In this document: one piece after another, positions 2,882 through 56,052 of the stretch
Position numbering within the stretch: position 1 is the stretch's first letter
How the letters are laid out: every line of letters starts with the position of its first letter
Source of the DNA: a virus
IMG/VR virus record: IMGVR_UViG_3300005918_000027
Span: 1-56,052 of that record
Length of the DNA stretch: 56,052 nucleotides
Reading direction: 5' to 3' (one strand)
The notes under the pieces: generated by a model
Databases searched by the model: none
Told to the model about the DNA's origin: nothing
What the model saw: the letters and a program-made list of their open reading frames with translations, nothing else
Position numbers and translations under genes: made by a program

Positions 2882-3264
2882 TGTCCGTCATCAAAATTTA
2901 CTGTAATTGATACATCGTCTTTTAAACCCCCTAATTCTGGGATTTTATAAATAACATCCACAGTCAATGTATAGCTCTCTTCATTAAAACTGTAGTTGAT
3001 AGTACTTATGCTTATGTTTGGAATAAATTCGATAATTTTATCAGTAAGTTCCTTGTTTAATTCCGATTGAGCCCTTGAGTCCCACGGCTCGAATATATAA
3101 TCATACAGAGGTGAGTACAAGCGGTTGTTCATTACGCGCTGACCTCTCTTGGTGGTCAACAGCGAAATTAAATTCGTGCGTATAGCATCTGCATCTGTTT
3201 TTGTAGTAGAAAACATGCCCCCTTGGCTGGTTTGTTGGAAAGGAAATCGAACTCCGATATACAT
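2878..3264 (-). CDS. 25: baseplate wedge protein, gp25/GPW-like
   Basis: This 128-residue protein matches the gp25/GpW lysozyme-like wedge family in length (T4 gp25 is 132 residues) and in its signature region TNLISLLTTKRGQRVMNNRL followed by a conserved F-E-P-W segment. It ends in a beta-rich stretch. In T4 it joins the baseplate wedge with gp6 and gp53. It is the first gene of a minus-strand pair with gp6 (ATGA overlap). A late-promoter-like octamer lies 17 nt upstream of its ATG. Confidence 0.88.
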   Translation of the reverse strand: MYIGVRFPFQQTSQGGMFSTTKTDADAIRTNLISLLTTKRGQRVMNNRLYSPLYDYIFEPWDSRAQSELNKELTDKIIEFIPNISISTINYSFNEESYTLTVDVIYKIPELGGLKDDVSITVNFDDGQ

Positions 3265-11314: not shown

Positions 11315-11736
11315 TATTCTTCATTTTCATCAGCACCACTATCATTGCCATTATTTCTTCTTTTTTCCCTACGGTCCTTAACAATATTCTGCATCCTCTC
11401 AGCCATGAATCGTTTTTCTTCGTCAGACATAACTGTGTTGTTTATAATTGTTGGTTGGTCTGTCTTATGAATAATCTTACCCATTTCTTTAACGATGTCA
11501 TTCAGAGTGTTAGATGCGTTAGAGGCGGCTTGAAGATATCCTAAAGCTGACTTACTCATCGTGAACACTTCTTCTTTAGTCTGCATGTCAGCATCAACCC
11601 TACGATATCTATCTAGGGCCATATCTCGCTCTTCAACTTTAAATTGAGCCACTTTATTAAGAAGTTCTGCATGGCCGTCTGCGGTCATTTCAATCTTCTT
11701 TTCACTTGTAGCTTTAGGGTTATCTGTTGCGTCCAT
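11314..11736 (-). CDS. acidic/basic helical protein of the tail operon
   Basis: A 140-residue, strongly charged helical protein with a low-complexity end (RREKRRNNG and then an acidic tail). It begins 13 nt after a late-promoter-like octamer and is the first gene of the run 11736 to 8430. The function is unknown. Confidence 0.6.
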   Translation of the reverse strand: MDATDNPKATSEKKIEMTADGHAELLNKVAQFKVEERDMALDRYRRVDADMQTKEEVFTMSKSALGYLQAASNASNTLNDIVKEMGKIIHKTDQPTIINNTVMSDEEKRFMAERMQNIVKDRREKRRNNGNDSGADENEE

Positions 11737-35558: not shown

Positions 35559-35942
35559 ATGTCTAAGAAATTAAGTCCGACGCTTGTACAGGAAGCTATC
35601 CTTGCAGAAGCAAAGGTAATCAAGAGAAAAAGAGAAATCTACACTCAGCTGCAAGCTTTGAATGAAGAGATTCAACAGCTCGATGAGCGTGGCATGGTAG
35701 GGACCTTCGGTTTTGAAGGAAACCCTAACGACCGAGTTCATACTTCAAAAACTGGGTTCGTAAACGACTTCCAAAACATTTCACACGTTGCCAGGTTGGC
35801 AGCTGAGTTTGCTGAGGCTGACGCAATAGATGAGTCAACCCAAGAAGAGAATACAAGGCTAAGAGCTAAGCTTGATGAACTGCAGGCTCAGTTGGATGAA
35901 TCCAACAAAGCAGTAAAAGCGGAGAAAGCAGAAAAAAACTAA
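35559..35942 (+). CDS. coiled-coil protein, possibly head-associated
   Basis: A 127-residue charged protein with a coiled-coil N-terminus (AILAEAKVIKRKREIYTQLQ) and an acidic helical C-terminus. Its N-terminal ~45 residues resemble those of the next gene, so the two may be paralogues in that part. A structural or scaffolding role is inferred only from charge pattern and company. Confidence 0.55.
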   Translation: MSKKLSPTLVQEAILAEAKVIKRKREIYTQLQALNEEIQQLDERGMVGTFGFEGNPNDRVHTSKTGFVNDFQNISHVARLAAEFAEADAIDESTQEENTRLRAKLDELQAQLDESNKAVKAEKAEKN

Positions 35943-37599: not shown

Positions 37600-39459
37600 T
37601 TAGCTTTTTAATTCAAGTTTATACCTCTTCATAACATCTATTAGAATACCTGAGCGAACGATTTCATCTTCTGTGAATTGTATAAAACCAATTTTTGGAA
37701 GGCCTTGAAACCTATTAAAAGCATCGTCTAATCCTGAGCGCTGACCATTTCTTAGATAAAGGTCTGTTTGGTCTGTGTCTCCGATAATTATAAGCTTTGA
37801 ACTTTCTCCTTTACGAGAAATCCAAAGCTTTAACCCAGCTACTGTTGTATTCTGCGCTTCATCAATTATTGCTACTGAATTTTCAAACGTTTCACCACGA
37901 AGATATGCAAGAGGAACATATTTAACAACGTCATTCTGAATGAAGTCCTTTGTCTTTGTTGAGCCTACAAGTTTTTTAAAATTTCCCAAAAATGAGTCCA
38001 TATAGGGGTCTATTTTTGAGTCTATGTCTCCAGGTAAGAACCCTATTGATTCGCCAGCTTCTACAATTGGTTTTGTGAGTATAATCTGGCTATATTCGTT
38101 GTCAATTTTCAGTAATTCTAAAGCAGTTTTTAAACTAAGTAAGGTGTTGTGAGTAACATTATAATCTCTTGTCACATATAAATGTCTTGGGTGGTCTATG
38201 TGAATACAAACACACTCTTCTTCTCCTTGTTTTTCGACACCAGTAATATATTTTATTTTCATTCTTTTTTTATCAGAAAATAGTCCTGCTTTTCTTGATA
38301 ACTTAAAAGGGTTAAGCGTTTCAAATAAAACAGTGACAACATAGCATATCTTTCCTTGCTTTTTTTCTCCAAATTTATCTGTAAAAAAGGGTTTTTTAGT
38401 TCTAATTGAAGAAATACCACCAAGGCTTCTAATTAGCTCCATGACTTGACTAGCTAAAATTTGCGACGTGGTGTAATATTCAATAGAAGAGCCATTTTTA
38501 GGGATATGCCCATCTGTATCCATTAAACCCCTTAGTAACTCCACCCTATCTTCAACAGAAGAGTAGAGATATTTATCAGGAATTATTTTCTCATGAGATT
38601 TTTGACCCATTAAACCTAAATCCCTCACCTCAAAGAGGAGTAAATTATTCGCCTTATTTGACCTTGTCTTAGTTGTTATGTAATAATCATAATTATCTCC
38701 AGGTTTTTTACTTATCTTAACAGGGTGAGGGAGGCTTTGCTTAAACTCACAAATAATTTCTTCGTCCGCAGAGCTAAACGAGACAAAATGTTGGCTGTAG
38801 CACCCGTCGCCTATTAAACAGCCCATTAGATAAGGGTTAATTATTAGTTCTTTATTTGCAAACTGTATAGGATTGCAGATGGGGATTGAGTGGTTTTTCC
38901 TGCCTCGGTTAGTCAGTAAGCTCTCTTTTATTTCAAAAGTAGTTTTTACTGCTCCTGACAGCGGCTCTCTTATTGCAACCCCATTCCTTTTTTTTCTATT
39001 ATTTCTATCAGCTTCTGTTTGTGTTTCCCATAAATGCTCACCACAGCATAGTGTATGCGTTCCATCAGAAAAAGACACCTTATAGACATCTTTTTCTCCT
39101 TGTGGATGAATAGAGTTGACATTTACAGGTGTTCCATCAACCGAAATTACTTTATCTCCAGGACGAATGCTTCCGATTTCCACAAAACCGCCAGGCGTTA
39201 ATATAGGCTCAGTTAGTGGTTGCGCCTTACCTGTCCCAGCAGCTCCAGCAACAAATGTGATTTCATTTTCCATGATAGTTTTGCACAGAAGCTTTTGCTT
39301 AGCGTTTTTGTGCTTAATATCTTTGTTGATTTGAAAATGAGATATTGCATTAAGCCTATCCATCTGAGCTTCCTTATCTCTCTCTAAGCCCATTTTTTCC
39401 AAGTCGCTTTGTATCTCACGAGATGTTTTTTGGCGTTGTACTTTTCTGTTTTTATTCAT
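37600..39459 (-). CDS. phoH: PhoH-like ATPase interrupted by an intein
   Basis: Of 619 residues, 1-78 and 439-619 are the PhoH exteins and 79-438 an intein. The host parts give a ~259-residue PhoH protein: FVAGAAGTGK (Walker A), the post-splice TLLSLKTALELL, IILTKPIVEAGESIGFLPGD, VAIIDEAQN (Walker B) and LIIIGDTDQTDL. PhoH proteins are P-loop ATPases found in many phages; their role in infection is not settled. The intein sits directly after the Walker A lysine, so the ATPase should be inactive until splicing. The mature form would be TGK-TLLSL, a complete P-loop. Confidence 0.88.
   Translation of the reverse strand: MNKNRKVQRQKTSREIQSDLEKMGLERDKEAQMDRLNAISHFQINKDIKHKNAKQKLLCKTIMENEITFVAGAAGTGKAQPLTEPILTPGGFVEIGSIRPGDKVISVDGTPVNVNSIHPQGEKDVYKVSFSDGTHTLCCGEHLWETQTEADRNNRKKRNGVAIREPLSGAVKTTFEIKESLLTNRGRKNHSIPICNPIQFANKELIINPYLMGCLIGDGCYSQHFVSFSSADEEIICEFKQSLPHPVKISKKPGDNYDYYITTKTRSNKANNLLLFEVRDLGLMGQKSHEKIIPDKYLYSSVEDRVELLRGLMDTDGHIPKNGSSIEYYTTSQILASQVMELIRSLGGISSIRTKKPFFTDKFGEKKQGKICYVVTVLFETLNPFKLSRKAGLFSDKKRMKIKYITGVEKQGEEECVCIHIDHPRHLYVTRDYNVTHNTLLSLKTALELLKIDNEYSQIILTKPIVEAGESIGFLPGDIDSKIDPYMDSFLGNFKKLVGSTKTKDFIQNDVVKYVPLAYLRGETFENSVAIIDEAQNTTVAGLKLWISRKGESSKLIIIGDTDQTDLYLRNGQRSGLDDAFNRFQGLPKIGFIQFTEDEIVRSGILIDVMKRYKLELKS
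38146..39225 (-). mobile_element. PhoH intein, apparently class 3 (WCT), with LAGLIDADG endonuclease
   Basis: The intein spans residues 79-438 (360 residues). It starts with Ala, not Cys or Ser, and ends VTHN before a +1 Thr. The candidate WCT residues of class 3 inteins are Trp144 (GEHLWE), Cys418 (ECVCIH, block F) and Thr436 (NVTHN). Class 3 inteins splice through the block F Cys instead of residue 1. The homing endonuclease domain has the two LAGLIDADG-type motifs YLMGCLIGDG and LLRGLMDTDG, both with catalytic-type Asp, so it may be active. Confidence 0.75.
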
Positions 39460-43517: not shown

Positions 43518-44354
43518 ATGATAATCTACAAAACAACGAACGTAATAAATAAAAAAATCTACATAGGGCAAGACTCAAATGACAATCCTAAATATTTAGG
43601 GTCGGGGTTACTTCTTCATAAAGCGATTAAGAAATATGGAAAAGATAATTTTAAAAAGGAAGTGCTAGAGGTTTGTTCCGACAGAAAGTGTTTAAATAAG
43701 CAGGAAATATATTGGATTAAATTTTATAAAGCGACTGACAAGGAAATTGGATACAATATATCTGAAGGCGGAACTGGTGGTAAATTAGTTCTTGTTGAGG
43801 GTAAAAAAGGTAAAACTTATGAAGAATACTATGGAGAGAAGAAAGCGAAAGAGCTAAAGGCTCTTTTTTCTAAAATTAGAAAAGGAAAAAAAAGAAAATA
43901 CGTCAATATAACAGCTGAGGAAGTAGGTAAAAAGGTAGGCAAAGCATTAAAAGGGAGAAAAGTATCCAATGAATGTAAGGGTAAAATTAGTAATACGCTA
44001 AAGAAGTATTTTCAAACAGAAAAAGGGATTAAATCAAGAAAAAGCATTAGCGGATTTCACACTGGAAGAAAACATAGTGAAGAAAGTAATAAAAAAAGAA
44101 GTGACGCCATGAAAGGGAGACGGCCAAAAATAATGGACATTCACCCCAGTGCTCGATATTGGTTTTTTTATGACAATAAAAATAAACTAATTTTCGAAAC
44201 ACTTGGAGATAAAAAGCATGCCTTAGAAAAGCTAAAAACAAATCAAAGAAAATTAGTGACTTTTGATAATTTGAACGATTGCTTAAATTATAAATTAGAA
44301 GACAGTAAGCATTTTAAAGTTTTTTATAAAAAGTATTATAAAAAGAAAACCTAA
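43518..44354 (+). CDS. GIY-YIG homing endonuclease with NUMOD3 repeats
   Basis: The 278-residue protein has an N-terminal GIY-YIG-type domain (MIIYKTTNVINKKIYIGQDS, with ELYWI-like QEIYWIKFYK) and NUMOD3-like DNA-contacting repeats: EEYYGEKKAKELKALFSKIR and GFHTGRKHSEESNKKRSDAM. Such enzymes cut a target gene and move the sequence that carries them. The interrupted S24-like gene is the obvious target. It is rich in lysine and very AT-rich. Confidence 0.82.
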   Translation: MIIYKTTNVINKKIYIGQDSNDNPKYLGSGLLLHKAIKKYGKDNFKKEVLEVCSDRKCLNKQEIYWIKFYKATDKEIGYNISEGGTGGKLVLVEGKKGKTYEEYYGEKKAKELKALFSKIRKGKKRKYVNITAEEVGKKVGKALKGRKVSNECKGKISNTLKKYFQTEKGIKSRKSISGFHTGRKHSEESNKKRSDAMKGRRPKIMDIHPSARYWFFYDNKNKLIFETLGDKKHALEKLKTNQRKLVTFDNLNDCLNYKLEDSKHFKVFYKKYYKKKT

Positions 44355-44846: not shown

Positions 44847-47144
44847 TTAAATCTTGATTGCAGACATCTTGTCTTCAAGAATAAACTTGCGCTCCTGGTT
44901 GTCCACCTCAAGCGTAAGCTCTTTGTCGTCTCTCGACTCCAAATCCGTGAACCAGCTCTTTCCGACAATAGTCAAGAACTTCGTTCTAGAAATACTGTTC
45001 TCCAGGTCACGTTTTTCCTTTCTGATTAACTCCGACTTGTTGTCAATCCAATCTTGAATCATGTTTGTGCGCTTTGTGTCATCCATCGATTCAACCATTT
45101 TATAGAATTCAGAAAACTCCTTGATGTGTGGTTCGAGAATTTCTTCTCTCTCAGTAAGCGGCTTGCTTGCCTCAAACTTCTCAACAACTCCCTTAGCGGA
45201 AGGAAGAGAAGATAGTTTGTCGATTTTAACCTCCATCGTATTCACCATCGCTTCCTCAGTTGTTGGAGTCAAAGTTACTTTAGGGTTGAATCCATAAGAA
45301 CTAATTCCAATCTCTTTCAACCACGCAGTAGCTTCTTCACCATAAGTGTCAGCGAATGATTTCGATGCACCGTCTAGGTAACACTTCTTGTAGTAGTTGA
45401 ATACTGAGTTTCTCGCTTTCAACTTGGTAAGAGCGTAATGGTTTCTGAACAACTCCTCGGCGGATGCTTCTCTAACCATTTTCTGATTGATAACTGGAAG
45501 ACTTGAAAAGTCTAAGTCATAAACAGAATTAGCGTTGTAGATTTCATCTTTAAGGAGTCCGTTGTCCTGGAGTTTTTCGAATGTATCCGAATCCAATGAT
45601 ACTGGAAGGATATATGTGTGAATCACTCCGTCTTTAATGATGTTGTAGTTACGAAATATGTTCGTGTCAAACCTTTCTGGTAAACCAAAACTGTTTGTTG
45701 GAAGACTTACGTAGCCTTTATACGTCACTTGAACAGAAAGGTTTGCTCTTTTGTTATTCCACGTGAGTGAAGTAATTGGGAAGCCTTTGTCTTTGTCTTC
45801 GTTGATGAAGCCAATTTTGTTGTCTTTGATTTTTTGCAACATAGACATTGCATCATCAATCTTATTCTCAGAGAGAAGTAAGTCAACTTGTTCTCTATCC
45901 GTGTCTGAAACGTCTTTGCGCTCAGTTTTTCTAGACATGCGCTTGTACTTCATTTGAGAAGGATACCATTTAGCGTCCTCAGAAGTCATTAAGTCGTCAA
46001 TCATGTCCATGACACAATAAGCATCTTCTGCAGGCTCCAAGTCTGGGTTATATCCATCCCTGAACATTTTTTCAGGGTCTTGCATCGTTGCCATCAACTC
46101 AGCTTCAAGCTCGTTGATTTTCTGAGTACCAAAAGTGTTTGCTTTTCTTACAATGAAATATGCGTCACCCACTACTCTAAGCATGTCAGAGATTGTGTTG
46201 AAGTCGTTACTTCTTGAGTAAGCCATCATACCAGCGTACATCGGTTGTAAGATGTTAGAGTACGCATCTGGGGTTCCTGATGCAAGTTTATAGTCCACGG
46301 TATCGATTTCCGTCGAAGTACGCGGCGCTGAGCTTGTCATGTAAGATACAGTGCTGATTGATTCTGGGTCAACGAAAACTTCGTTGTCAGAGTTTACTTT
46401 GTAAGAGATGACATTTCCTTCGTCGTCATACGAGTAAGCAAAGCCATCAATGGCGTTCTCTGAGAGAGTAACATACTTTCTCGCTGACATCATTTTCTGA
46501 GTAAACTGCTTTTCCATGTACGGCTCGTAGTCTTGGAAGTCTTCTGCGAAGATGTGTGCTCCACCAACCTCAGTAGCCATCTTGTTTAACAAGTCTTTGT
46601 TGCAGTAGTAACCGTACTCAACAATCGTAGCCGAAGCCAGGTTTGGAGCAATTTCACTTACTGATTCTAGAATTTGGCTCTCGCTCCATCCGTTGTCATA
46701 ACCATCTGTCAAAAAGAATAGCGAGTAAAGCTTGCCTGAATTTCTCTCTCTATCGTTGTTAATTAGGGCCTGAGCTTCTTGTAGTGGTTCACAGAATGTT
46801 GTAAGTCCACGTGAAGTAAGTTGTGAATCAATAAGTTTTTTAAGGTTTTTAAGACTTGTGTCGCTTTTGACCTGGAAGTCTTCAACAAGTACGCCGTACT
46901 GCCCTTTTCCAGAAAACCAGATGATTGAGACCGAATCTGTATCTCTTAGTAGGGTTGAGATTTTGTTGTATAGGTCTTTTCTGATTTCCAATAATTCATT
47001 CCACATCGAACCTGAACAGTCGATTATAAAAAGATGGTGAGTAGGCGACGCCGTTGGCTTTATGTCCCTGGGTGTGTCTGTTGTGAATTCTTCACTCAAA
47101 AGAAATCGACCATCCTTTAATTTAGTGTGTTTATAATTAGCCAT
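44847..47144 (-). CDS. large von Willebrand factor A domain protein
   Basis: A 765-residue protein with an N-terminal vWA domain (residues ~35-215). MIDAS residues are FIIDCSGSMW, a Thr in RGLTTFCEPLQ and Asp in LFFLTDGYDNGW. The rest is long and mainly helical, with many charged segments (KTERKDVSDTDREQVDLLLS), and has no recognised catalytic motif. It stands alone between two terminator or promoter gaps and is a second vWA protein in the window. It may act as a binding scaffold in head or host interactions. Confidence 0.8.
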   Translation of the reverse strand: MANYKHTKLKDGRFLLSEEFTTDTPRDIKPTASPTHHLFIIDCSGSMWNELLEIRKDLYNKISTLLRDTDSVSIIWFSGKGQYGVLVEDFQVKSDTSLKNLKKLIDSQLTSRGLTTFCEPLQEAQALINNDRERNSGKLYSLFFLTDGYDNGWSESQILESVSEIAPNLASATIVEYGYYCNKDLLNKMATEVGGAHIFAEDFQDYEPYMEKQFTQKMMSARKYVTLSENAIDGFAYSYDDEGNVISYKVNSDNEVFVDPESISTVSYMTSSAPRTSTEIDTVDYKLASGTPDAYSNILQPMYAGMMAYSRSNDFNTISDMLRVVGDAYFIVRKANTFGTQKINELEAELMATMQDPEKMFRDGYNPDLEPAEDAYCVMDMIDDLMTSEDAKWYPSQMKYKRMSRKTERKDVSDTDREQVDLLLSENKIDDAMSMLQKIKDNKIGFINEDKDKGFPITSLTWNNKRANLSVQVTYKGYVSLPTNSFGLPERFDTNIFRNYNIIKDGVIHTYILPVSLDSDTFEKLQDNGLLKDEIYNANSVYDLDFSSLPVINQKMVREASAEELFRNHYALTKLKARNSVFNYYKKCYLDGASKSFADTYGEEATAWLKEIGISSYGFNPKVTLTPTTEEAMVNTMEVKIDKLSSLPSAKGVVEKFEASKPLTEREEILEPHIKEFSEFYKMVESMDDTKRTNMIQDWIDNKSELIRKEKRDLENSISRTKFLTIVGKSWFTDLESRDDKELTLEVDNQERKFILEDKMSAIKI

Positions 47145-47256
47145 GTGATGTATTGATTTTGTTTAATTTGTGTGTTATAATTCTAACGAAAATCAATATT
47201 TTTATCCACAAAGCAGCCCTATTGCTTCAATGGGTTTTCTTTTTCTCTTTTGTCAG

Positions 47257-47264
47257 TTATTTAT
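47257..47264 (+). promoter_or_regulatory. late-promoter-like octamer before the 47277 gene
   Basis: TTATTTAT lies 12 nt before the ATG at 47277. It argues that a possible TTG start at 47250, upstream of the motif, is not used. Confidence 0.5.
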
Positions 47265-47276
47265 GAAAAACACGCA

Positions 47277-48104
47277 ATGATGAAGATGACTTCACTAAAC
47301 TTCGGAGTATTAAAGGAATCAATCGCTAAAAAGGCATCTGTCGAACTATCTAGAGGATACGAGGGTGACACTCTTATGCGATTTATGGAAACTGTAAAAA
47401 AGAGTCCTTCTCTGAAAAGACAGCATTTTATTTATAAAAACATTGAGATGGCTAAGCCGTTTGAGAAAGAGAGTCTTGCTGAGAGGTTTCTTAATCAGAA
47501 TTTAACTTTAATTAAAAGCCTTAAGTGGCACAAGATTACTGCTGAGAATTTAAAGCTTAGAACAAATCTTCTTGGAGCTCCAGATAAATCAACTGTTACA
47601 GCACGCGAAGACAAAAGAGGTTTGTATGAGGCAATTAACACACTAATTGAATCTAACACAAACACTGCTTTCAACGATTTTGAGTCAGAAGCAAATGCTT
47701 ACAGTGAAATAATTACCCATCTTACACGAGAAGTAAAAGAAGAATCTTCTAAGAGCGACGAAATAGCAACTCATCCTAAACTTGGTAAAGCTTGGGAATA
47801 CATCACAAAAAATGCTGTATCAAACTTTAACGAAAGATTTTCTCACTTAAATGAAGACGAGCAACAGTTGTTTAAGGTTCTCACTGCAGAAGGAGAGCAG
47901 AGAATAACTTATATAAAAACACTTAGAGAGGAAACTCGAAAAAATCTTCAAAGGAAACTAGATGTGTGCACATTAAGAGAAGACATCACTTTGCTTGAGA
48001 CGTTTAAAGAAAAGCTTATGCGAGAAGTTGGGGCTGAAATTTTAGTGAGTGACGAGTACATTTTTCACGTAGCAGACTTAAACCAGACGCTTAAGAAATT
48101 ATAA
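47277..48104 (+). CDS. unknown helical protein of the head module
   Basis: A 275-residue, highly charged helical protein, MMKMTSLNFGVLKESIAKKA at its start. The ATG at 47277 is chosen because the promoter octamer lies just upstream; two further ATGs follow. The genome position just before gp21, gp22 and gp23 suggests a head or portal-adjacent role, but no family was recognised. Confidence 0.6.
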   Translation: MMKMTSLNFGVLKESIAKKASVELSRGYEGDTLMRFMETVKKSPSLKRQHFIYKNIEMAKPFEKESLAERFLNQNLTLIKSLKWHKITAENLKLRTNLLGAPDKSTVTAREDKRGLYEAINTLIESNTNTAFNDFESEANAYSEIITHLTREVKEESSKSDEIATHPKLGKAWEYITKNAVSNFNERFSHLNEDEQQLFKVLTAEGEQRITYIKTLREETRKNLQRKLDVCTLREDITLLETFKEKLMREVGAEILVSDEYIFHVADLNQTLKKL

Positions 48105-48140
48105 ATTTGATTTTTTAGAAACTCATTACTATATTATGTA

Positions 48141-48662
48141 ATGAGCAGAGTAATTGAAAGAGCCGCAAGAGAGTTAGCAGTTCCATCAGTGGAATTAAAT
48201 AATTCTAAAGTAAAAGTAAAGATTGGAGCAACTGAAAAACGTGATGCCCCAACTACGGTTTATATTCAAGTAAGTTTTTGGACGAAACCAGCACCAAAGC
48301 ACGTCAACATGTCAAATCAAGAGTTACATCGACTTATTGATAAAAACATAAACAGAGCTTTTAAAAGCTCTGCTTCTAAAGAGCTTGAACAGCATTATTA
48401 TTTTACAAAGCCAAAAGACAATATCACAATTTGGAATATTCCAGATAACTTGAATTATAACTCTAAAAGAAATTACATCTCTCTAGAGTTGTATCTCCAC
48501 ACACTAAACACCGACAGCAAAAATGAGAGCTATCCGCTCCATTCTAAGAAAGACAGAAGGTTGTACGAGTCTGCCTTAGACATAGCTAATGTGTTTGCCG
48601 ACTCAGCTTTCTTCCAAGGTGAGGGAGACTTCCAAATATTCAAAACCGCATCTCAAGTCTAA
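48141..48662 (+). CDS. unknown protein before gp21
   Basis: A 173-residue protein (SRVIERAARELAVPSVELNN; NMSNQELHRLIDKNINRAFK). There is no recognised family or membrane segment. It lies 36 nt after its neighbour and 51 nt before the prohead protease gene, so a head-assembly role is likely by position. Confidence 0.6.
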   Translation: MSRVIERAARELAVPSVELNNSKVKVKIGATEKRDAPTTVYIQVSFWTKPAPKHVNMSNQELHRLIDKNINRAFKSSASKELEQHYYFTKPKDNITIWNIPDNLNYNSKRNYISLELYLHTLNTDSKNESYPLHSKKDRRLYESALDIANVFADSAFFQGEGDFQIFKTASQV

Positions 48663-48688
48663 AGGGCTGCATTCTGCGAATTTCCAAT

Positions 48689-48696
48689 CTATTTAT
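48689..48696 (+). promoter_or_regulatory. late-promoter-like octamer before gp21
   Basis: CTATTTAT lies 17 nt before the gp21 ATG, the same spacing as at gp25. Confidence 0.55.
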
Positions 48697-48713
48697 GGGA
48701 AACACAGAATGCT

Positions 48714-50531
48714 ATGAGCGGACTTATTTCCGATTACCAAGATAAATATATCATTTCCGAGTACTATACATTTAATGCTCCAACCCGTGAAATGATTATA
48801 GAGGCTGAAAAAAAATATCAGCCTATCGTGATGTCTGGAATTCTTCAGATAGCAGATACGTTAAATAAAAACGGTCGAATTTACCCATACGAAATTTTAA
48901 AGCGCGAGGCTGATAAGTACATGGAGCTCGTAAAGGAAAACGTGGCTGGTGGTGAACTTGACCATCCTGATTGCAACTCATTAGACACTAGCATTTTAAC
49001 CATTAACGGCTGGAAGAAGCTAATAGATATTGCAGAAGATGAGTTTATATATACTTTAAATCAGGAAACTAATAAAATTGAGGCTCATAAGATTGATAAA
49101 AAAATCTTAGAACCCTATAGTGGTAAGATGTATCACTTTAAGGGTAAAGGAATTGATTTGATGGTTACTCCAAATCATAGATTTATACTTGAGACATCTG
49201 ATGGGGTATCTTTTGAGAAGACAGCATCTGAGCTGTCTGAGTATAGAAGCGGAAAGTGGAGAATTCCTAAAAAAGGAAATTGGGATGGAATTAATTACGA
49301 TTCCTATATAATCCCTGGAATCGAAGAGTTTAAACCACACATAAGCAATGAGCTTAAGGATAAATATTCTCAAAACCTTGTTGTTAATGCAAAAGCGTGG
49401 TTTGCTTTTTTAGGTTTGTATCTAGCTGATGGAACTTCTGCTGGAGTGTGTGGGAGCAAAGCAAAACACAACCTCGTTAAAATTACACAGAAGAAGTCTG
49501 AGAATTTTGAGGCAATTAGAAAAATATTTGATGATTTAGGGATAGAGTATAACGAACGTGTTTATAGAGATGGGAAAATAGATTTTCAAATTTACGATGC
49601 ACGACTTAAGCAATATCTATTTCCTTTAGGGAATAGTTCTGAAAAATACATTCCAGAAGATATAAAAGCAGCTAATTCAGAATTGCTGACTATTCTTTTT
49701 GAAAATTTTCACATGGGAGATGGAACATCTAAAACATCTTATCATAAAGACAAAGGATATGTGTGTAAAAAGATTTTTTCTACTTCAGAAAAGATGATTA
49801 AAGACTTTAGTGAGGTGCTGTTAAAAATAGGGCTCCACGGAAATATAACTCAAGAACAACCTGTAGATAGATATATAAATGATGTAGTCGTTCTTGAAAA
49901 AGAAGTGGTGATGTCAGATGGGGCTGTAGAGATGGTTAAAGAAGAAATTTTAAAACCAAGATTGATTGAGGCTAAAAATAGTAAAACTAAATTCATCCTT
50001 AATGTTAGCACTACAGATTTTATTTACATGGATGAGAGATTTTTAAAAATCTCTCAAATCCAAAACCCGTTTGATAAAGTAGCTTGTGTCAGAGTTAAAA
50101 ACGGAAATTTCTTTGTAATGCGTAATGGTAAATCCCATTGGACTGGAAACTCCGCAGTTGTATCTCTCGCTAATGTTTCACACCGTGTTGTTGAGATGTG
50201 GTGGGAAGGAAAAGAATTATGGGGCCGAGTGCAAATTGCTGAAACAGATGCAGGCAACACGTTGAAGGGTCTTCTAAAAACTGGATTCAAATTAGGAATT
50301 TCTTCTCGTGGAGTAGGAAGTGTTAAGTCTCAGGGTGGACAAGACATTGTGCAAGATGATTTTGAACTAATCGCTTTTGATTATGTATCAAACCCATCAA
50401 CCCCAGGGGCTTACCTTTTTAAAGAAGGTTATATGAGACCACTTAAAGGGGTTAAAGAAAAAGCTAAATCAATAGGAGAGTTTAACCGTTTACAACTTAT
50501 TTCTCAGAAATCTTTCTGGCAATCAGCGTAA
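48714..50531 (+). CDS. 21: prohead core protease, gp21-like, interrupted by an intein
   Basis: Of 605 residues, 1-86 and 480-605 are the protease and 87-479 an intein, leaving 212 residues, the size of T4 gp21. The N-extein ends GGELDHPD (catalytic His); the C-extein starts SAVVSLANVSHRVVEMWW and holds LGISSRGVGSV with the catalytic Ser. gp21 cuts scaffold and capsid proteins at (I/L)xE sites inside the prohead. The intein sits two residues after the catalytic His, so splicing is needed for an active enzyme. Followed by gp22 and gp23 as in T4. Confidence 0.9.
   Translation: MSGLISDYQDKYIISEYYTFNAPTREMIIEAEKKYQPIVMSGILQIADTLNKNGRIYPYEILKREADKYMELVKENVAGGELDHPDCNSLDTSILTINGWKKLIDIAEDEFIYTLNQETNKIEAHKIDKKILEPYSGKMYHFKGKGIDLMVTPNHRFILETSDGVSFEKTASELSEYRSGKWRIPKKGNWDGINYDSYIIPGIEEFKPHISNELKDKYSQNLVVNAKAWFAFLGLYLADGTSAGVCGSKAKHNLVKITQKKSENFEAIRKIFDDLGIEYNERVYRDGKIDFQIYDARLKQYLFPLGNSSEKYIPEDIKAANSELLTILFENFHMGDGTSKTSYHKDKGYVCKKIFSTSEKMIKDFSEVLLKIGLHGNITQEQPVDRYINDVVVLEKEVVMSDGAVEMVKEEILKPRLIEAKNSKTKFILNVSTTDFIYMDERFLKISQIQNPFDKVACVRVKNGNFFVMRNGKSHWTGNSAVVSLANVSHRVVEMWWEGKELWGRVQIAETDAGNTLKGLLKTGFKLGISSRGVGSVKSQGGQDIVQDDFELIAFDYVSNPSTPGAYLFKEGYMRPLKGVKEKAKSIGEFNRLQLISQKSFWQSA
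48972..50150 (+). mobile_element. gp21 intein with LAGLIDADG-type endonuclease
   Basis: The intein spans residues 87-479 (393 residues). It starts Cys (CNSLDTSILTINGWKKLIDI), has the block B-like VTPNHRFIL, and ends HWTGN before a +1 Ser, so the penultimate residue is Gly instead of His. Endonuclease motifs are FLGLYLADGTSAG and ENFHMGDGTSK, both with Asp. It is a class 1-type intein, unlike the one in PhoH. Confidence 0.8.
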
Positions 50532-50546
50532 AACACGTTTTCTGAA

Positions 50547-50554
50547 TTATTTAT
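50547..50554 (+). promoter_or_regulatory. late-promoter-like octamer before gp22
   Basis: TTATTTAT lies 21 nt before the gp22 ATG at 50576. Confidence 0.5.
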
Positions 50555-50575
50555 TCACAAGCAACCAAATTAACG

Positions 50576-51961
50576 ATGCCACAAAACGAGCAAACATCAT
50601 TAGAAAAAGCATTCTTGGACTTCAAATCTTTGAAGGACACAGCTAAGGCTGAACTCATGAACCAACTCGAAGAAAAAGTAGAAGAACGAATTCTTTCGCT
50701 TATGAACGAGGAGATTCAAGAGGACGTTCCTCTAGAGGACAAAGAAATAGTAAGTGAAGGTGTAACCGTAACAATAAATGTCGATGGCGATGACGTATCA
50801 GTAGATGCGGGAAGCGACGAAGATTTGGAAACAGTAACAGCACCAGAAGAAGACGCAGATGAGATGTTTGAAATCTCAGATGACGCCGAATCATATCAAA
50901 TTAAAAACGAAATGAATTACCTCGACGAACAAGAGCCATTGGCACCAGAAATGGGGGCGGCTCCTGAGGCGGCACCAGCACCAGCACCAGCACCAGCACC
51001 AGAAGCTGTGCCAGAGCCAGAAATGGGAGAAGGGCAGCCAGAAGACCAAATCATTAGCGGAATAAAAGCTTTGATTGCTCAAAGCGGAGGAGAGTTAGGG
51101 GCGGACCCAGCAGCGGGTGGAGAAATCGACATCGTAGACGATGCGCCAGAGGCAGCAATGGCTCCTCCAGTGGCAGAAGAGTTTGACATGGAAGAGATTT
51201 TCGAAATCATTGATGAAATGGATGCCGAAGATGATGAATATCTAGGTATGGATGGAAGATTTGGTGCGAAAGACAGAGTTGGTCCGAATGACGATGATAT
51301 CACAATGGACGATATCATGGAGGACGAAGACGAGTTATATGAAATCGCTCTTGATTTAGATGAAGAGGAAGATGAACTCGACGAAGTGAAGATGATGGGA
51401 CACAGCCATTCAGTGCAAAGAAGTACTGGCACAAGTGCAGGTCCTGAGGTTGCTGTTAAAAACAGAAGCCGCAAAGCCGCAGTAAAAGAATCTACTTCCC
51501 AAAAGGGAAACAAGAATACAGCTCATAATGAGGCGAATATCGCTGAGCTTAATAAGGAAAACGAGAGTTTAAAAGCAAAAGTCAACGAGCAGAAAGGTGA
51601 AATTAAGAAATTCCATCAGTCGTTTGTTGAACTCAGAAGTCAATTCAACGAGATGCAGACTTTTAACGCCAAACTTGCTTACGCTAACAAATTGTTTGCA
51701 AATGGTGGATTCTCCGAGAAAGAGAAACTTCAAATCGCAGAGTCTTTTGATAAAGCAGCTAACGCTGATGATGCAAAGAAGCTGTACAACAGTATTATTT
51801 CTGAAAACAAACTAACTGTAAAAGACATCAAGTCTGAGATTTCAGCAACTCCTTCGAGAGCTGCGAGACCGCAGAACCAGTCTGAGCATGTAGTTCTTCA
51901 TGAAAGTGCTGAGATGAAGAGGATGAAAAAACTCGCAGGAATCAGTCGTCGCGAATCATAA
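50576..51961 (+). CDS. 22: prohead core scaffold protein, gp22-like
   Basis: A 461-residue, very acidic protein with a Pro/Ala repeat tract (APAPAPAPAPEA near residue 140), long acidic regions (EIIDEMDAEDDEYLGMDG) and a coiled-coil C-terminal third. It lies between gp21 and gp23 as in T4. The tail AEMKRMKKLAGI resembles the tail of the 35967 protein. Scaffolds of this group fill the prohead and are cut up by gp21. Confidence 0.78.
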   Translation: MPQNEQTSLEKAFLDFKSLKDTAKAELMNQLEEKVEERILSLMNEEIQEDVPLEDKEIVSEGVTVTINVDGDDVSVDAGSDEDLETVTAPEEDADEMFEISDDAESYQIKNEMNYLDEQEPLAPEMGAAPEAAPAPAPAPAPEAVPEPEMGEGQPEDQIISGIKALIAQSGGELGADPAAGGEIDIVDDAPEAAMAPPVAEEFDMEEIFEIIDEMDAEDDEYLGMDGRFGAKDRVGPNDDDITMDDIMEDEDELYEIALDLDEEEDELDEVKMMGHSHSVQRSTGTSAGPEVAVKNRSRKAAVKESTSQKGNKNTAHNEANIAELNKENESLKAKVNEQKGEIKKFHQSFVELRSQFNEMQTFNAKLAYANKLFANGGFSEKEKLQIAESFDKAANADDAKKLYNSIISENKLTVKDIKSEISATPSRAARPQNQSEHVVLHESAEMKRMKKLAGISRRES

Positions 51962-52009
51962 TTGACTGACGAATTAACTAATTAATAATAAACACAAAAA
52001 CACAACACA

Positions 52010-53656
52010 ATGAGCGAATTGCTAAGAAGTGGTAAGGTTGGAATGACAACATTCAAGAACCTTGCTGAACAACGCACAGCTATCGTGAAGAACTGGGATG
52101 ACTCAGGTCTATTGGAAGGTTTGCGTGGTACACAGAAATCGAACGTAGCACAGCTTCTTGAGAATCAAGCACAGGCGATGCTTAACGAGGTAACACTCGA
52201 TGCATCAGCTGGTCGTTTCGACACAGTTGCTTTCCCTATCGTAAGAAGGGTATTCTCTCGACTACTTGCTAATGAGCTTGTATCTGTACAACCACTCGCA
52301 CTTCCATCTGGACTACTGTTCTACATGGATGCTAGAGTTTCCTTTAACAATAGTGACAATACATTTAACAATGAAATCGGTAGAACTGCCGAAGTTGCTG
52401 GAGCATCTAAAACTGCACCAAAAAACACAGCCAACCAAAACGTAGGGCCTAATTTTGCTGACACTACTGCATACGAACGTTTTTACAACAATCACGGGTT
52501 TGACCTTTCCTTTGGAACGGGTGAAACTGTTACAGGTACGTTTCAAATAATTTCAGGTAGTTCGTTTGTAGGTGGTCTTTCTAATATAACGTTTGCATTG
52601 GACACTGGATTCGACGTGTCGAAGCAGCAATCGTCTGCAACATTACGTTATTCATCTACTACGGAAATCTATTACTCTGCTGGTTCTTCGAACACGCTTG
52701 TAGTAGCAGCTGGTGGCTCAGTACCATTCTTTAGCCAAATTCAAACTTGGACAGAAGACCAGTACGCTGGAAACAATGCTGATGTGGTCCTTGACCTTCG
52801 TCCAGCAGGTGTTTACGGTTCTGACTTCGCAGTTGCCAACTTGAACTCAGGTGGAACTGAATTCGGCGCAGCCGTGAGGTTCACCATCACTCCAGCTTAC
52901 GAAATCTTCAACGACCTAGAGGCGAAAAGTGAGATGGCTGAAATCACAATCCGTTTCTCTTCTGTTACAGTTAACACTGTTACTAGAAAGTTGAGAGCAC
53001 ACTGGACTCCTGAGCTTGCTCAAGACCTTGAGGCTTACCACTCAATTGATGCAGAAGCTGAGCTTACAGCTCTTCTTTCTGAGCACGTTGCAGCGGAAAT
53101 CGACAGAGAAATCATTATCGACCTTATTAACGGTGCGCCGTTTAAAGCTCGTTGGGATTACAACGGATTGGCTAACAACGCCAACTTCTTTGGAACACAA
53201 AAAGATTGGAATCAAACTCTCATCACTCGTGTAAATGAGCTATCAGCTCAAATTCACAAGGCGACATTGAGAGGTGGTGCTAACTGGATTGTATGTTCTG
53301 CAGAGGCAGGTGCTATTTTCGATGACCTCGAATACTTCCACGTTGACGGTTCTGCTTCACCAGAAGCTGAAAAGTACAACTTGGGTGTTGAGAAAATCGG
53401 TAACTTGGCTAACAGATATGTTGTCTACAAAGACCCATATTTGCCAGCACAAATCGTTCTTCTAGGACACAAGGGTAACACCTTCTTGGAAGCAGGTTAT
53501 ATCTACGCGCCGTACATCCCTCTTCAATTGACGCAAACAATTTATGACCCGAACGACTTTACACCTCGTAAAGGTATCATGACTCGTTACGCCAAGAAGA
53601 TGGTTAACAACCGTTTCTACGGAGTCGTATACGTTGACAATATCAACACTTACTAA
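52010..53656 (+). CDS. 23: major capsid protein, gp23-like
   Basis: The 548-residue protein has the T4-like capsid N-terminus: LLEGLRGTQKSNVAQLLENQ at residues ~35-54, then FPIVRRVFSRLLANELVSVQ, where the HK97-type fold begins. The C-terminus (YIYAPYIPLQLTQTIYDPND; RKGIMTRYAKKMVNNRFYG) matches the gp23 P-domain end. The LLE segment is a candidate gp21 cleavage site that would remove the first ~52 residues. A terminator follows at 53695. Confidence 0.93.
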   Translation: MSELLRSGKVGMTTFKNLAEQRTAIVKNWDDSGLLEGLRGTQKSNVAQLLENQAQAMLNEVTLDASAGRFDTVAFPIVRRVFSRLLANELVSVQPLALPSGLLFYMDARVSFNNSDNTFNNEIGRTAEVAGASKTAPKNTANQNVGPNFADTTAYERFYNNHGFDLSFGTGETVTGTFQIISGSSFVGGLSNITFALDTGFDVSKQQSSATLRYSSTTEIYYSAGSSNTLVVAAGGSVPFFSQIQTWTEDQYAGNNADVVLDLRPAGVYGSDFAVANLNSGGTEFGAAVRFTITPAYEIFNDLEAKSEMAEITIRFSSVTVNTVTRKLRAHWTPELAQDLEAYHSIDAEAELTALLSEHVAAEIDREIIIDLINGAPFKARWDYNGLANNANFFGTQKDWNQTLITRVNELSAQIHKATLRGGANWIVCSAEAGAIFDDLEYFHVDGSASPEAEKYNLGVEKIGNLANRYVVYKDPYLPAQIVLLGHKGNTFLEAGYIYAPYIPLQLTQTIYDPNDFTPRKGIMTRYAKKMVNNRFYGVVYVDNINTY

Positions 53657-53694
53657 TCTGCAAAGATTGGTTGGTTTGACCAACAATACCATAA

Positions 53695-53728
53695 AGAAGG
53701 GTTCCCAAAAGGGAGCCCTTTTTTTTGC
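53695..53728 (+). terminator. rho-independent terminator after gp23
   Basis: AAGGGTTCCC pairs with GGGAGCCCTT (one G-U pair) around an AAAA loop, followed by eight T. It ends the head transcript and abuts the convergent 53729 gene. Confidence 0.8.
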
Positions 53729-54130
53729 TTAAGCCTGTTCGTAATATCCTTCGATTTGTCTTTTTGCTCCTGCTCCAGCTGTGAAGTCATGCGTGTCTTG
53801 GAATACTCCGTCAACACATGCAACCAAATGGTCTGTTGCCAAGGCTGCAATTGTTCTTTTTGGCATTAATTCATTCTGTGGTGGCACTGGACGACGCATA
53901 TTTGTCCATTTCCATCCATGCTCAGCCATATACTTATCGAGTACGTGGAACTGAACTCCACTACCCTCATGCTTGGGGTCATCATCCAAGCTTAGTTTAA
54001 GCAGAACATCATGAACTTTTTGGTATGGCTCCTTAGTAACAATAGCTACAGCTCGATAAACACAAGCTCCATCTGTGGGTTCGAAGCCAGCCTCGACTCG
54101 ACCTCCATCATTTTGATTCCATTTCATCAT
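53729..54130 (-). CDS. putative papain-like cysteine protease fold protein
   Basis: A 133-residue protein. It begins MKWNQNDGGRVEAGFEPTDG followed by ACVYRAVAIVTKEPYQKVHD, then GWKWTNM, HLVACVDGVFQDTHDF and a Tyr-rich end. Small proteins with this Cys...His...Asp order (C in ACVYRA, H in HLVA, H-D in DTHD) look like minimal papain-like or C39-like folds found in phages and bacteria. The catalytic role is a guess from the residue order. It lies between gp23 and the tandem array and is separated from the array by about 75 bases. Confidence 0.4.
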   Translation of the reverse strand: MMKWNQNDGGRVEAGFEPTDGACVYRAVAIVTKEPYQKVHDVLLKLSLDDDPKHEGSGVQFHVLDKYMAEHGWKWTNMRRPVPPQNELMPKRTIAALATDHLVACVDGVFQDTHDFTAGAGAKRQIEGYYEQA

Positions 54131-54203
54131 AAACTAGTATTTAGATATGTAACGGGTTGTTTTTAATAGCATAACCAATATACGCAATAAACCAGAAAAA
54201 GTT

Positions 54204-54269
54204 TCAAGTTACATCTTGTTGTGTTGTCGTTTTTAGTCTCATATCAATTTTTGTTGTCTTTAGTCTCAT
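54204..54269 (-). pseudogene. truncated last copy of the tandem family
   Basis: An ATG at 54269 overlaps the stop of the 54266 gene (ATGA). The frame gives only MRLKTTKIDMRLKTTTQQDV and ends at TGA. It is the family's N-terminal pentapeptide MRLKT duplicated and then broken. It marks the downstream edge of the array. Confidence 0.6.
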
Positions 54270-54529
54270 GCCAATATAAGTCTTATTGTAGTCCAATCCC
54301 ATTCAATCCAGGGGACAGGCCTAGCGGTCCCCTTGTGGATTTCAACGAACCAATCCCCAGGGAATCCATCAGGAAACCACACTTCATAAACCTCACCTGG
54401 CCTGTTTTGAAGACGCAACGCTACCAAATATGGGTACCGCTTCGTGGGTTCAAACCCACCACGAATCAATGCGTCTTTGCATGCATCACTTGCATTACAT
54501 GCATCTGTTTGTGCTGTTTTCAGTCTCAT
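54266..54529 (-). CDS. tandem-family protein, copy 6 (last complete)
   Basis: 87 residues, starting MRLKTAQTDACNASDACKDA, with GDWFVEIHKG and WDWTTIRL near the end. It overlaps the remnant downstream and copy 5 upstream by ATGA. The function is unknown. Confidence 0.75.
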   Translation of the reverse strand: MRLKTAQTDACNASDACKDALIRGGFEPTKRYPYLVALRLQNRPGEVYEVWFPDGFPGDWFVEIHKGTARPVPWIEWDWTTIRLILA

Positions 54530-54786
54530 ACCAAACTAAATATTATTGTATTGGTCCAATCCCAAGAAACAAAGCTGATGGTTTTGGGGCCAACAACGGT
54601 CCCTTTGTCGATTCGAACGAATCTATCCCCAAGGTATCCATAAGAATGGAAGTGCGCTCCATAAACCACTTCACCTGGCTTATTTTGAAGCCGCAACTGC
54701 CACGGGCTGATAGTTTTAAACCCACCACGAATCAATTGTTCTTTGCATGCCTCTGTTGATGTCGTTTTTGCCGTTTTCAGTCTCAT
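54526..54786 (-). CDS. tandem-family protein, copy 5
   Basis: 86 residues, starting MRLKTAKTTSTEACKEQLIR. It departs most from the others in the middle (AHFHSYGYLGDRFVRIDKG instead of VWFP...GDWFVRI), so it is the most diverged complete copy. It overlaps its neighbours by ATGA. Confidence 0.75.
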   Translation of the reverse strand: MRLKTAKTTSTEACKEQLIRGGFKTISPWQLRLQNKPGEVVYGAHFHSYGYLGDRFVRIDKGTVVGPKTISFVSWDWTNTIIFSLV

Positions 54787-55046
54787 ACAAATATAAGTGT
54801 TATAGGATTAGAAGAATCCCATTCAATAAAGCCACGATGGTCTTTAGAGGCAAGCGTAACTAAAGACCCTTTATGGATTCGAACGAACCAATCACTGCGG
54901 TATCCATCAGGAGAGAGCCACACTTCATAAGCCTCACCTGACTTTTTTTCACCAAGCCACAACCGCCAGAGGTGCCTTATCGAGGCTTCGAACCCACCAC
55001 GAATCAATGTTTTTTGGCATGCATCTGTTGCTGTTTTTAGTCTCAT
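54783..55046 (-). CDS. tandem-family protein, copy 4
   Basis: 87 residues from the ATG at 55046 (a frame to 55082 would start inside copy 3). It reads MRLKTATDACQKTLIRGGFE, then SDWFVRIHKG and IEWDSSNPITLI. It overlaps both neighbours by ATGA. Confidence 0.75.
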   Translation of the reverse strand: MRLKTATDACQKTLIRGGFEASIRHLWRLWLGEKKSGEAYEVWLSPDGYRSDWFVRIHKGSLVTLASKDHRGFIEWDSSNPITLIFV

Positions 55047-55309
55047 ACCAATATAAGTGTTATTACATTGGTCCAATCCCAATCAACCCAACCATCGCTG
55101 ATTTTGGGGCCAGCAACGGTTTCTTTGCGGATTCGAACGAACCAATCCCTTCGGTCTCCATCGTGAGGAAACCACACTTGATAAATCACTGGACCTGGCT
55201 TTTCTCCACCAAGTTGCAAAACCAAACACTGTGGGTTGTTCGCGTCTTCGAACCCGCCACGAAGCAATGTCTCTTGGCATGCGTTTGCTGTTGTCGTTTT
55301 CAGTCTCAT
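55043..55309 (-). CDS. tandem-family protein, copy 3
   Basis: 88 residues, MRLKTTTANACQETLLRGGF at the start, QVWFPHDGDRRDWFVRIRK in the middle and VDWDWTNVITLI at the end. A good consensus copy. Confidence 0.75.
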   Translation of the reverse strand: MRLKTTTANACQETLLRGGFEDANNPQCLVLQLGGEKPGPVIYQVWFPHDGDRRDWFVRIRKETVAGPKISDGWVDWDWTNVITLILV

Positions 55310-55584
55310 ATCAATTTAAGCCTTATTTCACTGGTCCAATCCCAATCAACCGAACTGTTGGAGGCAGGCCCAATGGTCCCTTTGTGGATTCGAAAAAATA
55401 AATACCAACGGTATCCATCGCGAGGGAACCACACATCATAAGCCTCACCTGGCTTGTCTCCTCCAAGACGCAACTCAAAAGCCCGCGAGCTGTACGTCGT
55501 GTCTTCGAACCCACCACGAATCAATGCCTCTTGGCATGCATCGCTTGCATCGCATGCATCTTTTGTTGTCGTTTTCAGTTTCAT
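55306..55584 (-). CDS. tandem-family protein, copy 2
   Basis: 92 residues, the longest copy. It starts MKLKTTTKDACDASDACQEA, with an expanded DAC repeat in the first helix, and has DVWFPRDGYRWYLFFRIHK in place of GDWFVRI. It overlaps its neighbours by ATGA. Confidence 0.75.
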   Translation of the reverse strand: MKLKTTTKDACDASDACQEALIRGGFEDTTYSSRAFELRLGGDKPGEAYDVWFPRDGYRWYLFFRIHKGTIGPASNSSVDWDWTSEIRLKLI

Positions 55585-55844
55585 ACCAATCTAAGTATTA
55601 TTTTGTTGGTCCAATCAACCCAACTGATGGTTTTGGAGCCTCCAACGGTCCCTTTGTCGATTCGAACGAACCAATCTCCACGGTATCCATCACGAGGAAA
55701 CCACACATCATAAACCTCACCTGACTTGTCTCCACTAAGACGCATCCAAACGCCCCGCGCGTTGGTTACCCTTACTTCGAACCCACGACGAAGCAATGCC
55801 TCTTTGCATGCGTCGCTTGCATCTTTTGTTGTTTTTAGTCTCAT
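55581..55844 (-). CDS. tandem-family protein, copy 1
   Basis: 87 residues, starting MRLKTTKDASDACKEALLRR, with DVWFPRDGYRGDWFVRIDKG and WVDWTNKIILRL. A 62-base stretch (55725-55786) is identical to one in the next copy upstream, so part of this unit was recently copied or converted. Confidence 0.75.
   Translation of the reverse strand: MRLKTTKDASDACKEALLRRGFEVRVTNARGVWMRLSGDKSGEVYDVWFPRDGYRGDWFVRIDKGTVGGSKTISWVDWTNKIILRLV
55725..55786 (-). repeat. 62-base exact repeat, first occurrence
   Basis: Bases 55725-55786 are identical to 55991-56052. In protein terms the repeat covers FEVRVTNARGVWMRLSGDK in two adjacent family members that differ elsewhere. Confidence 0.85.
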
Positions 55845-56052
55845 TCCAATCTAAGTATTATTTTGTTGGAAAAATCCCAATCAACCCCGCTGATGGTTTT
55901 GGAGGCAGCAACAGTCCTTTTGTAGATTGCAACGAAGTAATCCCCAAGGAATCCATCACTAGGGAACCACACTTCATAAACCTCGTCTGGCTTGTCTCCA
56001 CTAAGACGCATCCAAACGCCCCGCGCGTTGGTTACCCTTACTTCGAACCCAC
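55841..56052 (-). CDS. tandem-family protein, partial copy at the right edge
   Basis: An open frame from the window edge to a TGA at 55841 gives ~70 residues, GFEVRVTNARGVWMRLSGDK and EVYEVWFPSDGFLGDYFVAI. The N-terminus lies outside the window. The stop overlaps the start of copy 1 (ATGA). It departs from the others in having DYFVAIYK instead of DWFVRIxK. Confidence 0.75.
   Translation of the reverse strand, partial: GFEVRVTNARGVWMRLSGDKPDEVYEVWFPSDGFLGDYFVAIYKRTVAASKTISGVDWDFSNKIILRLE
55991..56052 (-). repeat. 62-base exact repeat, second occurrence (at the edge)
   Basis: Identical to 55725-55786 as far as the window shows. The match may continue past the right edge. Confidence 0.85.

Follow-up and report, generated by a model that had tools for sequence, protein, structure and literature searches.

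Organization of the tandem array

The window, i.e. the whole stretch of DNA analysed here, is 56,052 nucleotides long (positions 1-56,052 of IMG/VR record IMGVR_UViG_3300005918_000027), and its array of small paralogous genes lies at 54204-56052. Six of its units are complete in the window (86-92 aa), a further one is interrupted by the window edge and there is a truncated tail, all on the minus strand. The edge-cut unit W1 (55841-56052) lacks its 5' part, and its start is found as the last unit of locus L008 in another record. It is followed by W2 (55581-55844, 87 aa), which is absent from the other allele described below (best match 80.5% identical), and by W3 (55306-55584, 92 aa), which is identical to unit A7 of locus L009 and is the first of a block common to both alleles. 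The remaining units are W4 (55043-55309, 88 aa; identical to A8), W5 (54783-55046, 87 aa; differing from A9 at one base), W6 (54526-54786, 86 aa; identical to A10) and W7 (54266-54529, 87 aa; identical to A11), the last complete unit. At the end of the array there is a remnant (54204-54269), an ATGA-coupled 21-codon ORF MRLKTTKIDMRLKTTTQQDVT on the same strand with two degenerate unit starts, both reading MRLKT.

The distances between unit starts are 257, 260, 263, 275 and 260 bases, and the start of one gene overlaps the stop of the previous one as ATGA at all 20 junctions examined (7 of 7 in the window, i.e. six between units and one into the remnant, 10 of 10 in L009 and 3 of 3 in L008). 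Some units are also readable from an upstream in-frame TTG, and the coupled ATG was taken as the start. The counts, coordinates, start spacing of 257-275 bases and ATGA junctions of the original prediction were all confirmed, while its array of at least seven genes is real and proved longer than the window shows, with 11 units in one allele and probably about 10 in the other. Each unit closes with a conserved end ACTtAgATTGGTATGA, which codes for the C-terminus and lies ahead of the next start. Before the first unit, the in-frame last codons of a unit are found in both alleles (in allele A, by reading, LDWTNTIILKLV followed by a stop), so that partial units stand at both ends of the array.

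When the 55581-55844 copy was used as the query, it matched the six other window units with E values from 3.1e-30 to 1.0e-18. The conserved words quoted in the prediction are broadly right, and conservation is looser than it stated: only G21, L36, I62, K64, W78 and I82 (numbering of the 55581-55844 copy) are invariant in the 16 rows of units. The copies are diverging paralogues, as had been proposed, and their variation is indeed concentrated just after GGFE, with further variable stretches. The G+C content of the array is 0.463 versus 0.383, above all 31 windows of 1,780 bases (0.338-0.433), which fits an origin outside the phage and is no proof of it.

Gene surroundings and expression signals

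The array lies between two genes. Directly upstream, on the same strand, is an asparagine--tRNA ligase gene (L009:2173-3369, +, 398 aa; TIGR00457, 370.9 bits with a cut-off of 342.6), and a 53% relative of this gene is held by the distantly related record L018, with no array beside it. About 4 kb upstream of the array, L008:83-559 (-) encodes an HNH-type nuclease, which matches part of an IscB model (E 9.6e-08, below the cut-off). After the array comes a 133-aa gene (53729-54130, minus strand; phrog_3754, function unknown, E 6.7e-07), which would be on the same transcript as the array. Between this gene and the convergent major capsid gene there is a weakly supported hairpin (53692-53722, minus strand; z -1.79, with 12 of 200 shuffles folding equally well), which was not listed by a consensus scan of the same stretch in L009 and is possibly a terminator.

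An SD-like 4-mer precedes 2 of the 47 ORFs picked as likely genes, with 6.4 expected by chance, and thus a Shine-Dalgarno sequence is not to be expected at the units. Bacteroidota are hosts of this kind, and a Bacteroidota-like host would be our guess. For L009 3200-7000, eight sigma-70-like sites were counted against 6.9 in shuffles, and no promoter stands out. The heptamer TATTTAT precedes 8 of 48 ORFs, and neither allele has it in its array leader. It is located 20-28 bases before the window ORFs 2878-3264, 11314-11736, 35559-35942, 43518-44354, 48714-50531 and 50576-51961, and it is possibly a late promoter motif, the major capsid gene being without it.

The carrier phage

The carrier is a T4-like phage, with a gp23-type capsid, a gp21-type protease and a UvsX-like recombinase, the last found in record G001, which would belong to the same strain. 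The major capsid gene is at 52010-53656 (phrog_138, E 2.5e-67), the prohead protease gene at 48714-50531 (Peptidase_S77, E 1.1e-22), and a baseplate wedge gene is also present. The nearest named relatives of the capsid protein are those of Microcystis phage Mel-JY01 (43.9% over 62%) and then Rhodothermus phage RM378 (36.2% over 65%), the latter being given in PMC4360716 as the sole Far-T4 reference genome at that time. Megablast of window 44900-54200 matched nothing in 50,697 phage records, and the annotation of Mel-JY01 shows no series of small paralogues at a distance of up to 8 kb from its capsid gene.

Besides, several other genes of the window deserve mention. Two of them carry apparent inteins, namely a PhoH gene (37600-39459, -), in which LAGLIDADG_3 (306-355) and similarity to intein-bearing proteins come before PhoH (438-613), and the prohead protease gene (48714-50531, +), in which Intein_splicing (below the cut-off) and LAGLIDADG_3 come before Peptidase_S77 at 483-568. 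In a run of minus-strand genes, a NeuB-family domain, a SAF domain and a xylose-isomerase-like TIM barrel are fused (22647-24545, -), and a search of genome contigs for a relative of this NeuB-type protein as a clue to the host found none. The 765-aa product of the gene at 44847-47144 (-) contains a von Willebrand factor A domain and matches phrog_2426, whose function is not assigned (E 2.7e-152).

Two alleles of the array in related records

We scanned IMG/VR with one unit and found five records, and a second unit found the same five. The upstream gene found these five and the distant relative L018, which is without any unit (5 of 6 records match), while the gene after the array found two of the five. 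The array is complete in two records, G002 and G003, where it has 11 units and is flanked by the asparagine--tRNA ligase gene and by the 133-aa gene beside the major capsid gene. Their stretches L009 and L010 show no difference over 10,276 bases; L011 and L012 are the same as each other, and both match L009 over 5,108 common bases. Because an identical, complete 11-unit array was assembled in two records from different IMG metagenomes, an assembly artefact, which the original prediction had named as a possible refutation, is disfavoured.

These four records make up allele A, and allele B is made up of the window and G001 (IMGVR_UViG_3300022843_000009, 141,051 bases), whose array locus is L008. 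G001 ends in unit W1 with a 69-base exact overlap with the window edge, and the window and G001 are probably neighbours in one strain. Since L008 ends in the cut unit of the window, allele B would have about 10 units, one of them split across two records. The window contains the first 62 bases of this edge twice; from this repeat and the overlap with L008, the edge is most likely an assembly break inside a repeat. The first 1500 bases of the window, at its other end, had no match in any of five records, in a comparison run without a positive control.

Outside the array the two alleles are nearly the same. The flanks of the window and G002 differ by 23 SNPs with no gaps in 45,974 bases (9 of 20,000, 12 of 20,000 and 2 of 5,974 by stretch), and G001 differs from G002 by 1 SNP in 19,898 bases. 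Nearer the array, in stretches that partly overlap these, the 3,454 bases leading to the first unit contain 2 differences and 3,957 bases beyond the array contain 3. In the array itself, the five downstream units (A7-A11 and W3-W7) differ by a single SNP. The upstream units are different: six in allele A (A1-A6) versus five in allele B (B1-B3, W1 and W2), and the 30 cross-allele pairs are 71.6-81.8% identical over aligned bases, with best partners at 76.5-81.8%. Elsewhere, in roughly 66 kb compared, the alleles differ by 0.05% or less.

The boundaries of the differing block are located close to junctions between genes. The identity of the window and L009 ends 12 bases before the start of the first common unit. 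At the left boundary the alleles differ at 40, 5 and 1 bases ahead of the first ATG and again at 4 and 8 bases past its A, and from 14 bases on, inside the first unit, they are out of register. It is well supported that a block of units was replaced, with edges at or close to the junctions of units. Only two alleles are known. Allele A was identical in all four of its records where these were compared, indicating that the array does not change from one sample to the next.

Coding status and selection

Gaps, codon differences and recombination statistics were counted with the cut unit W1 excluded. In a DNA alignment made without codon guidance, every gap run is a multiple of three (93 of 93 when each sequence is counted by itself, 26 of 26 when each distinct span is counted once), and all 15 complete distinct units are open. 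When the same substitutions were scattered randomly, 2.1 of 15 units stayed open on average and 7 at most, and all 15 were open in 0 of 2000 runs. The open units and frame-keeping gaps establish that the units are protein-coding.

Differences per codon position are flat in the units (0.265/0.258/0.250), and the substitutions from the consensus number 215, 229 and 189 at codon positions 1, 2 and 3. For the one control gene, the neighbouring tRNA ligase gene compared with its relative in L018, the pattern is an ordinary one, with values of 0.370/0.245/0.581, at an amino-acid identity of 54% versus a mean of 57% for the units. Omega is 0.83 with a bootstrap interval that includes 1 (0.58-1.15), and 0.95 (0.59-1.45) in the variable columns, which were picked after viewing the alignment. 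In the variable blocks, dN and dS are both high. The reading frame is strongly selected, and many of the residues are free of such selection. Positive selection, which the original prediction had raised for the variable loop, is not supported so far, and by these estimates it is neither shown nor excluded.

Mosaic units and recombination

Several pairs of diverged units hold exact segments in common. For instance, A5 and B3 have 70 exact bases in common at their starts (82% identical overall), W1 and W2 have 60 (88% overall), A3 and B2 have 56 (79% overall), and A2 and A5 have 44, which are internal (86% overall). None of 1000 permutations reached the Sawyer-type sum of squared shared fragments, and the same was true when permutation was confined to variability classes. 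Significance was lacking for the longest-fragment statistic in two of three versions and for the PHI test (p 0.07-0.16 over four window sizes), and incompatibility showed no increase with distance (p 0.40). It turned out that the comparison of the alleles gives good support to the exchange of units by recombination, which we consider very likely, and recombination within units is moderately supported. A candidate gene for such a process, encoding a UvsX-like recombinase, is present in G001 (RecA family, E 4.4e-9).

Family and structure searches

We searched the 16 rows of units against several libraries. NCBIfam gave no match; Pfam gave two (E 0.034 and 0.13, the second below the cut-off), in one member each; PADLOC gave one, in a single member (E 0.036); and PHROGs gave 12, none of them better than E 0.027 and none obtained with more than one member. 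The best match among PDB sequences had an E value of 1.4. No convincing relatives of the units were found in named phages and plasmids, and no relative of one unit in genome contigs, for which the scan by exact peptide patterns was a weak one. As predicted, no known family was recognised in Pfam, PHROGs, NCBIfam, PADLOC or PDB, and the match to a housekeeping family that would have spoken against the prediction did not appear: the library matches are single-member, at E 0.027 or worse, and we therefore rejected a known or housekeeping family.

With tblastn, one unit matched five related jumbo-phage records (E 0.1-0.2, 28.8% identity), four of which are annotated as fibre or long tail fibre. 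A relation to tail fibres was rejected, since the match is within noise and was not repeated with another unit. Two structure predictions had mean pLDDT of 59.1 and 53.0, with a low-confidence secondary structure of one N-terminal helix and five or six strands, and Foldseek returned no match at E 0.001 or better in PDB and BFVD. In view of the low pLDDT and the Foldseek result, no fold is claimed. Searches of the open PMC library for phage arrays of tandem paralogues gave no title or abstract that describes an array like this one.

Possible function of the array

The partly different unit sets in near-identical phages suggest a recombining repertoire aimed at the host. We put forward, tentatively and with slightly less than even confidence, that the array is a translationally coupled repertoire of small host-facing, probably counter-defence phage proteins. 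The original interpretation is partly supported on the whole, and the anti-defence, anti-receptor or structural role that it offered is not directly supported so far.

In the proposed mechanism, an upstream leader, which is present in the related records and lies outside the window, would be followed by 10-11 small genes chained by ATGA, and the stop of each unit would let the next gene reinitiate at ATGA. The last ~15 bases of a unit would give both its C-terminus and the start region of the next gene; as these bases serve both neighbours, units could be exchanged, added or removed with the chain kept intact. Through the conserved unit ends, homologous recombination between units and between co-infecting phages may replace whole blocks of units and make mosaic units. 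The proteins would be kept open and yet be free to vary, as for small binders of a variable partner, and the likeliest partner would be a polymorphic host factor, i.e. a defence protein or toxin, with each unit fitting a different variant.

The repertoire reading is supported by the ATGA coupling, the open units, the hypervariable island, the shared segments and the flat codon positions, and also by the partial end units, the RecA/UvsX-like gene in G001 and the high G+C of the array. It is weakened by the PHI result, an omega not above 1, the finding of only two alleles and the lack of a promoter and of a homologue or usable fold. A further version is polarised: units would enter or be replaced at the leader end, the downstream units would stay fixed and the far end would decay. 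The coupled chain would be expressed most at the leader end, and the array would be a protein-coding counterpart of a CRISPR-like archive in its polarity, built by recombination at self-contained ATGA junctions. Drawn from one allele pair, this version seems doubtful.

The units could instead be virion components (decorating, internal or fibre-associated), a mixed set diversified where it faces the host surface or is injected. This is unlikely, in our opinion. The array is indeed near the head genes for the protease (48714-50531) and capsid (52010-53656), and the faint tblastn match leads to fibre-annotated records. However, the array is convergent with the head genes, that match is within noise and unrepeated with another unit, and TATTTAT, which the array leader lacks, is found 24-28 bases ahead of the genes for protease and scaffold, a weak point as the capsid gene also goes without it.

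It is rather improbable that the units are immunity proteins or decoys against toxins of competing bacteria or phages, and not inhibitors of host defence. The genes of the EsaG and TipC immunity proteins form tandem strings of small non-identical paralogues with conserved blocks and mosaic genes (PMC9484751), which speaks for this explanation, but no unit has a Pfam or NCBIfam match above the curated cut-off, and no toxin family was found among the few neighbouring genes scanned, a thin test.

Still less probable is that the array is a by-product, a self-amplifying repeat kept by recombination, whose protein is under relaxed selection. Flat codon positions, an omega near 1 and truncated units at both ends would all agree with such a repeat, whereas 15 of 15 open units and gaps that are all in frame are not expected from relaxed selection. 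That a diversity-generating retroelement or other targeted mutator made the variation is scarcely credible and was rejected: the variation does come in blocks with high dN and dS, but reverse transcriptase was found in none of three records, which are fragments (3 of 14 control genomes were positive), and the differences include many in-frame indels and shared segments.

Comparison with known systems

T-even internal head proteins are small, variable gene sets in T4-like phages, and some of them are counter-defence proteins. The units may be likened to them, and none of the PHROG matches of the units is better than E 0.027.

A second comparison is with T4, in which recombination tandemly amplifies the dmd-tifA locus under pressure from a defence system; tifA is gene 61.4 and encodes 85 aa (PMC9391042; related PMC13096335). 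This precedent indicates that amplification of a small counter-defence gene in this manner is within reach of a T4-like phage. The likeness is that of a T4-like phage in which a small gene is tandemly multiplied by recombination and beats a host defence, while the difference is that a two-gene locus was amplified there in laboratory evolution, and here diverged units are exchanged between natural alleles. No homology to TifA or Dmd was seen, with hhalign probabilities of 0.3% and 0.1% in a comparison that had single sequences on one side and could miss a distant relationship.

The closest resemblance is to the EsaG/TipC immunity-gene strings of type VII secretion loci, in which variable regions lie between conserved blocks and paralogues are created, lost and reshuffled by recombination; strain RN6390 has 12 esaG genes (PMC9484751). 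The phage units are likewise tandem, non-identical small paralogues on one strand, with conserved DNA blocks separated by variable regions. In contrast, EsaG/TipC strings are on a bacterial chromosome with a linked toxin, and the present array is in a phage, is coupled by ATGA and has no toxin found. None of the 16 rows scored above any Pfam or NCBIfam cut-off, these libraries being assumed to hold the EsaG/TipC models. The array thus closely resembles these strings in what appears to be its manner of evolution, not in membership. It is by analogy with this kind of evolution, together with the T4 dmd-tifA precedent, that the array would be read as a repertoire.

In conclusion, if the units inhibit variable host factors, they would offer a ready catalogue of 16 natural variants on one scaffold, in two alleles with hardly any other difference across the ~66 kb compared, and the role of a phage's most variable genes would become directly testable. 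If the reading is true, the recombining-paralogue strategy of bacterial immunity genes would extend to T4-like phages.
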